DNA of 33,693 nucleotides from the NCBI GenBank assembly GCA_002699615.1, contig PAAM01000009.1, positions 1-33,693 of the forward strand. The letters run 5' to 3'. Every line of letters begins with the position of its first letter. Positions within the stretch are counted from its first letter, which is position 1. The DNA comes from Rhodobiaceae bacterium. GTDB taxonomy: Bacteria > Pseudomonadota > Alphaproteobacteria > Rhizobiales > TMED25. Of the stretch, positions 19,886-26,699 are shown piece by piece. Below the pieces are notes generated by a model, which did not search any database, was not told the origin of the DNA, and was given only the letters and a program-made list of their open reading frames with translations. Made by a program: the position numbers and the translations under genes.

Positions 19886-20428
19886 TTATCTTGGCGCTAA
19901 CACCATGATGATTTGACGCCCTTCAAATTTTGGCTCAAGTTCAACTTTCGCTAGTTCATCTGTATCATCTTTTATTCGATCAAATAACTTCACCCCAAGC
20001 TCCGAATGTGACATTTCTCGTCCACGGAACATAAGTGATATTTTCACTTTATCTCCAAATTCAATGAATTTTTTCATATTCTTTAATTTTACTTCGTAGT
20101 CGTGTGTGTCAATGTTTGGACGCATCTTAATTTCCTTAACACCAATTACCTTCTGCTTCTTTTTAGCCTCGGCGGCTTTCTTCTGGGATTGATACTTAAA
20201 CTTACCATAGTCCATAATTTTGCATACTGGTAGGTCTGTATTCGGAGAAATTTCAACGAGGTCTAATGAATATTTTTCTGCCTCTTGCAAACCAATATCT
20301 ATAGTTACTTCACCATAATTTTCGCTATTAGGCCCTATAAGTCTGATTTTCCCTGCATCTATTAAATCATTTATTTTGTGTGCTGGCTCAGTTTTCTTTC
20401 TTGCGAAATCTTCTGTTCTTCTGGCTAT
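19886..20428 (-). CDS. infC: Translation initiation factor IF-3, with ATA start codon
   Basis: The product is a 180-residue IF-3, which blocks premature subunit joining and rejects non-canonical start codons and wrong initiator tRNA. The N-domain is seen in KINDLIDAGKIRLIGPNSEN and the LDLVEISPNTDLPVCKIMDYGKF linker region. The C-domain is seen in KEIKMRPNIDTHDYEVKLKN and MFRGREMSH. The frame contains no ATG, GTG, TTG or CTG between the in-frame TGA upstream (20446-20444) and a TTG at 20290, which would delete much of the N-domain. ATA at 20428 is preceded by GGAG with a seven-base spacer and gives the normal length. E. coli infC starts with AUU for autoregulation; ATA here would serve the same end. 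Confidence 0.93.
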   Translation of the reverse strand: MARRTEDFARKKTEPAHKINDLIDAGKIRLIGPNSENYGEVTIDIGLQEAEKYSLDLVEISPNTDLPVCKIMDYGKFKYQSQKKAAEAKKKQKVIGVKEIKMRPNIDTHDYEVKLKNMKKFIEFGDKVKISLMFRGREMSHSELGVKLFDRIKDDTDELAKVELEPKFEGRQIIMVLAPR

Positions 20429-25021: not shown

Positions 25022-25966
25022 CTAGCTTGAAAAACGTCCCAGATACTCCGGAATTATATTCTTTGGTGAGCATGCTTGTATTCCATAATCTTCAAGTTTC
25101 CCAATCTCTTTATTTTTTGAATTACGTAAAATATTATCTGTTTTTAGTGACTCAAGTTGATCAAATGTGATGGGTCTTTTTGGCAAAACCTGCATCGGGG
25201 TAATAAATATTTTTGATAATGAAAACGGTATTGGGATCAGAAGTCTTTTCTTACCAATTGTTGTCAAAATTAACTCAATAACTTCCCGAAGGGAATAAAT
25301 TTCTTTACCACCAATCTCATATATACTTTTCTTATCAATATCTTCTAAATGCAGAATTATTAGCTTTACTAAATCGAGCACATAAACTGGTTGAAATTTT
25401 GTATCTCCATTTCCGATTAGAGGAAAAAAAGGGGCTAGAGTTAAAATTCGCGCAAATTGATTGAAAAAATTATCATCAATACCGAATACAATAGAGGGTC
25501 TAATTATTGTATGATTTATATTTTCACTCTTAACCGACTCTTCCCCTAGGGCCTTGCTTCTTTGGTATTTTGAAGTTGAGTTGACATCCGCACCCAAAGA
25601 TGACATGTGTATATACCTGTTCACCCCATATTGAGTACAACCTTTTGCAATAAGCCCAGGTAGTTCGCCATGAATATATTGGAATTTTTGTCTTTTTCTC
25701 TCCTCTAATACACCAATCAAGTTTATGACATAATCAGATCCTTGTATAAATTTATTAATTGAAACCTCACTATTCACATTAACGTTGGTAACTTCTATTT
25801 GCCCGGGTACGCCAGAAACATATAGGTGATTTGCAGTAGTCGGGTTTCTTGTTCCAATTTTTATTCTATAGCCATCTTTGGCCAACTCTCGAACTAAATT
25901 CCGACCGATGAAGCCATTGCCGCCGAAGACGGAAACGATCTTACTTTTATTTGATGGTATATTTAT
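25022..25966 (-). CDS. NDUFA9-like atypical SDR (complex I subunit family), with ATA start codon
   Basis: The product is a 314-residue atypical SDR related to the complex I NDUFA9 subunit and COG0702-type proteins. The Rossmann motif is VFGGNGFIGRNLVREL at the N-terminus, with VNLIGVLEER, HMSSLGAD, SKYQRSKALGEE (Tyr/Lys positions) and IIRPSIVFG further on. In alphaproteobacteria it is often found beside uppP, as here. The Rossmann motif lies upstream of a TTG at 25885, so that cannot be the start. Between it and the in-frame TGA (about 26106) there is no ATG, GTG or TTG. ATA at 25966 has GAGG eight bases upstream and gives a normal N-terminus, MNIPSNKSKIVSVFGG. A sequencing error changing ATG to ATA is the alternative. 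Confidence 0.82.
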   Translation of the reverse strand: MNIPSNKSKIVSVFGGNGFIGRNLVRELAKDGYRIKIGTRNPTTANHLYVSGVPGQIEVTNVNVNSEVSINKFIQGSDYVINLIGVLEERKRQKFQYIHGELPGLIAKGCTQYGVNRYIHMSSLGADVNSTSKYQRSKALGEESVKSENINHTIIRPSIVFGIDDNFFNQFARILTLAPFFPLIGNGDTKFQPVYVLDLVKLIILHLEDIDKKSIYEIGGKEIYSLREVIELILTTIGKKRLLIPIPFSLSKIFITPMQVLPKRPITFDQLESLKTDNILRNSKNKEIGKLEDYGIQACSPKNIIPEYLGRFSS

Positions 25967-25978
25967 TTTTCTAGCCTC
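25964..25978 (-). promoter_or_regulatory. Shine-Dalgarno and ATA initiation site of the NDUFA9-like gene
   Basis: On the minus strand GAGG at 25978-25975 is followed by an eight-base spacer and ATA at 25966-25964. Another in-frame ATA is at 25960 but is less well spaced. ATC and ATT codons further upstream have no Shine-Dalgarno. The arrangement resembles the infC site closely. Confidence 0.55.
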
Positions 25979-26014
25979 GGATGAAGTTGTGATGAAATAA
26001 TATAATTTAATTAA

Positions 26015-26043
26015 TTGTGAATATAATATATATTCAATATAAA
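26015..26043 (+). promoter_or_regulatory. Putative promoter of rnd-lptC-lptA-lptB-rpoN
   Basis: TTGTGA at 26015-26020 and TATAAA at 26038-26043 are separated by exactly 17 bases, placing the start near 26050 and a leader of about 23 bases before the rnd TTG. A further TATAAT at 26022-26027 lies in the spacer. The region is divergent from the NDUFA9-like gene. Prediction by eye. Confidence 0.45.
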
Positions 26044-26072
26044 AAAAATAAATTTTGTAAAAAGGATAAGAA

Positions 26073-26699
26073 TTGAGTAGTAATTTACCAAAAATATATC
26101 TTCATAATGACGATATACCAGAGAATATATCATTGGGAAATCAGATTGCAATTGATACTGAGACCCTCGGGCTTAATCCTAGTAGAGATAGACTTTGTCT
26201 AGTCCAAATTAATGATGGGAACGAGTGTACTCATCTAATTAGAGTTTCTTCCAAGATAAATCCTGCTCCAAATCTAATTAAAATCCTCGAGAGTAAAAAA
26301 ATACAAAAGCTATTTCACTTTGCCCGTTTTGATGTAGCGGTCATGACAAAGTCCTATGGAGTAACTGTAAATAATATTTATTGTACAAAAATCGCTTCAA
26401 AAATAGCGAGAACCTACACCGACAAACACAGCTTAAAATCTCTCTGCGATGAACTACTTAATATATCGCTATCAAAAGAAGAGCAGAGCTCTGATTGGGG
26501 CGCTGAAAAACTAACAGAAAATCAAAAAAAATATGCAGCAAATGATGTAATTTATTTACATAAAATCAAACAAGCCCTCGACTCAATTCTAGAGAGAGAA
26601 AATCGAATCGATCTCGCTAAGTCATGTTTTGAATTTATAAATACTCAAGTCGAATTAGATCTTAGGGGCTGGGGTAATCAAAATATTTTCGATCACTGA
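26073..26699 (+). CDS. rnd: Ribonuclease D (short form, exonuclease domain only)
   Basis: This 208-residue 3'-5' exoribonuclease of the DEDDy type has Asp28 and Glu30 in AIDTETLGL, Asp87 in HFARFDVAV, and Tyr154 with Asp158 in KYAANDVIYLHK. No HRDC domain follows, which is usual for the short alphaproteobacterial form. It would trim tRNA or other RNA 3' ends. The start is a TTG at 26073 with AGGA six bases upstream; no ATG fits. lptC starts three bases after the stop. The rnd-lptC-lptA-lptB-rpoN order is typical of alphaproteobacteria. Confidence 0.9.
   Translation: MSSNLPKIYLHNDDIPENISLGNQIAIDTETLGLNPSRDRLCLVQINDGNECTHLIRVSSKINPAPNLIKILESKKIQKLFHFARFDVAVMTKSYGVTVNNIYCTKIASKIARTYTDKHSLKSLCDELLNISLSKEEQSSDWGAEKLTENQKKYAANDVIYLHKIKQALDSILERENRIDLAKSCFEFINTQVELDLRGWGNQNIFDH

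Follow-up and report, generated by a model that had tools for sequence, protein, structure and literature searches.

The window analysed here, a contig of 33,693 nucleotides from a Rhodobiaceae bacterium (GenBank assembly GCA_002699615.1, contig PAAM01000009.1), carries on its minus strand a gene for an NDUFA9-like protein of the SDR type, and also the gene infC, which encodes IF3 (Table 1). The SDR product contains the Pfam domains Epimerase, NAD_binding_10 and NmrA, and no NCBIfam model matched it above its cut-off. When the profile of the SDR family was compared with PDB, 31 distinct sequences were matched at E ≤ 1e-10, mostly named NDUFA9, 39-kDa or NUEM subunits, and the best match was chain P of 9g83 (residues 7-312). 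The protein thus resembles the NDUFA9-type SDR of complex I, including the mitochondrial 39-kDa subunits, although the solved chains are no evidence that the SDR of the OCS116 family is itself a complex I subunit. A second SDR homologue, 32% identical, is present in the same assembly (G000:C17:5293-6168, locus L002). The neighbouring divergent rnd-like gene (window 26073-26699) has a DNA_pol_A_exo1 domain and, by frame listing, a TTG start in the genome of the window (G000) and in G001, whereas in G012 an ATG is found close by.

Table 1. Coordinates of the start sites and genes discussed in the text; positions are those of the window unless a locus or genome is named.
Feature	Position	Strand	Basis
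NDUFA9-like SDR coding sequence, 314 aa + stop	25022..25966	-	Pfam Epimerase/NmrA; profile match to NDUFA9, 39-kDa complex I chains
ATA, putative start codon of the NDUFA9-like SDR	25964..25966	-	AUH in 13/13 readable family genomes; coding periodicity from here
TGA, in-frame stop upstream of the SDR	26102..26104	-	Frame reading
TTG, first standard start in the SDR frame, inside the protein beyond the Rossmann motif	25883..25885	-	Frame reading
GAGG, SD-like, 8 nt before the SDR ATA	25975..25978	-	Duplex -5.9 kcal/mol, anti-SD assumed
ATA, putative start codon of infC	20426..20428	-	ATA in 14/14 family genomes
infC coding sequence from ATA	19886..20428	-	NCBIfam infC TIGR00168; Pfam IF3_N/IF3_C
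MbhD/MbhE-domain gene, further AUH candidate	L120 13940-14461 (G001); G012 C8 near 67300		Two-genome reading

The SDR reading frame is open from position 26101 to the stop at 25024-25022. An earlier note on this DNA had stated that no ATG, GTG or TTG occurs before the TTG at 25885 and that the Rossmann motif VFGGNGFIG lies upstream of that codon, and the frame reading bears this out, with zero such codons between the TGA and the TTG at 25885-25883. The in-frame TGA that it described is present, at 26104-26102 and not near 26106, and the ATA at 25966 is indeed preceded by GAGG (25978-25975) with a spacer of 8 nt. A second in-frame ATA, at 25960, reads TTA in two relatives (G012 and G013), and the ATA at 25966 is therefore the conserved one.

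The SDR gene is present in all 14 genomes sampled from the OCS116 family, the close loci coming from marine single cells and metagenomes. One genome (G008) was left out of the start reading since its contig stops short of the start codon. In the 13 readable genomes the codon at this place is ATA in six (G000, G001, G002, G005, G006 and G010), ATT in six (G003, G004, G007, G011, G012 and G013) and ATC in one (G009), and it is never NUG. Of the two observations named beforehand as able to overturn an ATA start, a G at the third base occurs in 0 of 13 family genomes, and an upstream start in relatives is equally lacking, as no in-frame NUG lies between the nearest stop and codon 1 except in G005, where a TTG stands 39 codons ahead of it, in a poorly conserved stretch. 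The stop is the codon directly before the start in G002, G003 and G009. Mean minor-allele counts at codon positions 1, 2 and 3 are 3.6, 4.0 and 4.47 over the 45 bases upstream, 0.67, 1.0 and 3.78 over codons 2-10, and 2.0, 0.77 and 5.2 over codons 11-40, with counts of 0, 0 and 7 at the start codon itself. From this pattern it follows that coding-type constraint on the SDR begins at codon 25966. The proposal that this ATA is the likely start of the SDR thus holds in sister genomes, with AUH (AUA, AUU or AUC) in 13 of 13, and the interpretation that the earlier note gave of it is partly supported.

Outside the family, each of the 89 SDR loci has a NUG in the stretch that runs from the upstream stop (or from 120 codons upstream) to codon 13. 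It falls exactly at the projected column 1 in 35 of the 89, and 85 have one of the 12 most frequent offsets, which lie between -7 and 11. The putative AUH start of the SDR is therefore, among the genomes read, a trait of the OCS116 family.

Calculated with an assumed anti-SD sequence, and not one read from this genome, the SD-like match of the SDR ranges from -2.9 to -6.4 kcal/mol over the 13 genomes, being -4.8 or better in eight and weak (-2.9 to -4.2) in five. A match at -4.8 kcal/mol or better precedes 14.8% of the 1072 internal AUH codons of G001, so that, taken by itself, this match is weak support for the SDR start; the share with a match of that strength among first aligned ATG codons is only 28%. 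RNA structure at the SDR start was unremarkable (z 0.29), and the promoter scan found 1 site against 1.6 expected. Translational coupling was ruled out for the SDR, the upstream neighbour being divergent. Three tRNAs with a CAT anticodon were found in the scanned stretches of G012, and one of these (L145 695-771, minus strand) has the initiator-type C1:A72 mismatch together with an AGG/CCU anticodon stem in place of GGG/CCC. The exact AGG/CCU pattern occurs in 49 of 61 relatives and the GGG/CCC pattern in none. Since most of the order shares this stem, a special initiator tRNA was ruled out as the cause of the AUH starts of the family.

The suggestion that AUA starts are in wider use in this lineage stood in part: further genes seem to be affected, while the class of putative starts is AUH, with AUA, AUU and AUC interchanging, and not AUA alone. 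The scans covered samples of the genomes (0.40 Mb of G001, 0.40 Mb of G003, 1.10 Mb of G012 and 0.19 Mb of G000), the first candidates coming from a partial scan and then from one with three genome pairs (228, 90 and 148 gene pairs). Most sampled genes use NUG starts. Nine of the 268 genes of G001 that have an orthologue in G003 or G012 were listed by a strict test, under which at least one genome had to lack any NUG between the stop and the eighth codon after the conserved beginning. By inspection five of them look real, namely the SDR, infC, an argE-like gene and the gene for cob(I)alamin adenosyltransferase, with an NlpC/P60-like gene as the least certain; the remaining four seem to be artefacts (an antisense frame, a cut end and, in two cases, a difference at the N-terminus). 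In a second scan of 231 genes, 10 were flagged, among them again the SDR, infC, argE-like and adenosyltransferase genes together with an MbhD/MbhE-domain gene, and the other five look false. A less strict scan, which flagged 126 of the 268 genes, was dropped. The gene-scan control on outgroups returned 67 of 446 genes as having no NUG, which on visual inspection were infC and, for the most part, false antisense frames of GC-rich DNA, and is unusable as a count; the contrast with other lineages therefore rests on the SDR and the adenosyltransferase and not on a genome-wide rate.

The infC of the window also starts at ATA, as had been claimed, and the codon is ATA in all 14 genomes of the OCS116 family; among order-level loci infC has AUH in 15 of 16 and GTG in the other. 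Comparison of the encoded IF3 (window 19889-20362) with 16 order-level loci (L274-L289) revealed family substitutions at positions that are nearly invariant in the latter. By a threshold set by the analysts, 12 columns carry family-fixed substitutions, an example being the change of MAH to MSH within FRGREMAH.

To judge from these alignments, the adenosyltransferase is the cleanest case of a candidate AUH start. All 11 family loci read have AUH, as ATC in nine, ATT in one (G002) and ATA in one (G009). No locus in G000, G004 or G006 reached the matching threshold, and the count takes in one copy from G003. That genome has two matches, G003:C1:772-1353 and G003:C2:6263-6844, perhaps owing to the 6% contamination of its assembly. 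An accidental TTG lies 5 codons upstream in G002. In relatives, the N-terminus reads M-V-x-L-N-K-I-Y-T, and the same codon is ATG in 18 and GTG in one of the 19 loci read, all 19 being from the 46 order-level genomes that matched. A class-wide scan for the start motif in 385 genomes matched 49, with G as the third base in 48 and A in one; the first base of the codon was not printed, so that the NUG type includes CUG here. Some of the 48 genomes with the NUG type are only 1.0-1.8 Mb in size, so that a small genome is not in itself enough to bring about AUH starts.

The argE-like gene passes the NCBIfam cut-off of acetylornithine deacetylase (TIGR01892) and is found in 13 of the 14 family genomes, where the presumed start, after GGAG(G), is ATA in six, ATC in four and ATT in three. 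The stop is the codon just before it in G003 and G009. In the alignment an indel shifts the codon of G007, G004 and G011, which by direct reading is ATC. Accidental NUG codons are a TTG 5 codons upstream in G002, a TTG 4 codons downstream in G001 and G010, and a GTG 9 codons downstream in G007 and G004. The MbhD/MbhE-domain gene, read in two genomes, has GGAG followed by ATA (G001) or ATC (G012); an ATG six codons further on is without an SD match. In G000, G001 and G003 the NlpC/P60-like gene (L190 12944-13750 in G000) is devoid of NUG close to where its conserved part begins; G012 has an ATG in frame 10 codons ahead of the AUH pair, and stops interrupt the copy in G008 (L221, L225).

Taken together, these comparisons strongly support the use of AUH as a probable start codon in the OCS116 family. 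We assign a probability of about 0.6 to the reading that these are genuine starts, weak and discriminated against by IF3, which are kept because they hold synthesis low. It is known that fMet-tRNA can initiate at AUH, that IF3 discriminates against such codons and that the yield is low. According to this reading, the AUA of the NDUFA9-like gene would be its translation start, AUH would be kept there throughout the family, and the family's AUH starts would extend to infC, the argE-like gene and the adenosyltransferase. An SD-like sequence would position the 30S subunit at the AUH codon, where the initiator tRNA-fMet would pair with A and U and leave the third base mispaired. IF3 would reject most of these complexes, so that synthesis of the protein would be slow and would speed up under a shortage of IF3, and AUH would be kept where the product is wanted at a low or IF3-responsive level. 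We infer by analogy that the first residue is Met, that the yield is low, that initiation depends on IF3 and that selection favours low output. At the third base A, T and C interchange, and G is found in none of the 13 SDR, 13 argE-like and 11 adenosyltransferase sequences. Free exchange at this base with G absent would fit selection for low output; it is suggestive only, given that G makes up 13% of fourfold third positions in G001 and that the genomes are related. A more ambitious extension, which we regard as quite doubtful, is a start-codon regulon of the OCS116 family, in which metabolic AUH genes would be translated together with infC according to free IF3. Its members would be the SDR, the acetylornithine-deacetylase-like gene and the cobalamin adenosyltransferase, possibly with the MbhD/MbhE-domain and NlpC/P60-like genes.

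The main rival is relaxed start selection, by which the ribosomes or the IF3 of the OCS116 family would discriminate poorly against AUH, so that these codons would be nearly neutral and would have drifted in with no regulatory role. It is a possible explanation, though an unlikely one. Several unrelated genes are affected, A, T and C exchange freely at the third base, and the 12 columns of family-fixed substitutions in IF3 provide a lead in its favour. Neutrality nevertheless predicts some return to ATG, which is seen in none of the 13, 13 and 11 sequences; most of the sampled genes start at NUG, and the constancy of AUA in infC (14 of 14) suggests that discrimination still matters. That translation of the SDR begins downstream, at the AUH of codon 10 or at an accidental NUG differing between genomes, is very improbable. 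In favour of such a start, the readable genomes have AUH at codon 10 as well, yet substitution across codons 2-10 is of the coding type, with S5, S8, K9 and I10 nearly invariant, and the downstream NUG codons (TTG at codon 14 or GTG at codon 11 in single genomes) are unshared and would remove the Rossmann motif. Sequencing error, a frameshift or a code in which AUA means Met can be given hardly any weight, nothing beyond the single-genome view being in favour: error and frameshift are excluded by AUH in all 13 assemblies, which agree with each other and stand in for a raw-read check of base 25964, by the coding constraint from this codon and by the preceding stop in three genomes, and a changed code is opposed by the apparent use of AUU and AUC as starts too and by 8 of 30 all-Ile columns that mix ATA with ATT or ATC in six genomes of the genus, so that AUA reads as Ile inside genes.

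If the weak, IF3-discriminated AUH starts are real in vivo, gene finders will miss or truncate such proteins, the SDR losing its NAD-binding motif, and the OCS116 family will offer a natural test of the purpose of AUH starts. Three enzyme genes hold AUH across the whole family, and relatives of two of them use standard starts. The recurrence of AUH in the SDR of every readable relative and in a few other genes suggests that the family resorts more than usual to a rare means of limiting protein output. Among the open-licence literature matches listed, none deals with such starts in OCS116, nor with their use in bacterial genes for NDUFA9-like proteins, argE or cobalamin adenosyltransferase, which is weak evidence of absence.

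Among the closest known systems is infC itself, which has an AUU, AUC or AUA start under autocontrol by IF3. Like the SDR, it has an AUH start conserved over the family, in the same genome; it differs in that the SDR belongs to metabolism or respiration, and no feedback loop is implied for it. In Escherichia coli, the AUU start of pcnB holds an ordinary gene low, which is the role proposed here, in another gene, whereas AUH in OCS116 spans several genes. In Staphylococcus aureus, according to one study, AUA and AUU starts gave about 10% of the output of AUG in minimal-medium reporters, and the ccpN start up to 30% in rich medium (PMC13009471). The same study (PMC13009471) describes ccpN (AUA), cvfC1 (AUU) and citZ (AUA), the first two conserved among relatives. 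Their codons are among those found here; they differ in resting on ribosome data and reporters, in an extended SD and in belonging to other genes and another phylum, the OCS116 starts being known from sequence. In another study 36 genome triplets served for a reconstruction, and of 61,358 ancestral AUG starts 1 had become AUU (PMC5622118); counts of this type rest on annotations that favour NUG. In Streptomyces, a report on sigR describes a GTC start repressed by IF3 (PMC5472188), a non-standard start that limits the protein as proposed here; it differs in the codon, in the product, a sigma factor, and in that its dependence on IF3 comes from experiment, whereas a role of IF3 in OCS116 would rest on precedent. 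AUH starts under IF3 are thus already known from infC, pcnB and ccpN, and what would be new in the OCS116 family is their presence in several metabolic genes together.
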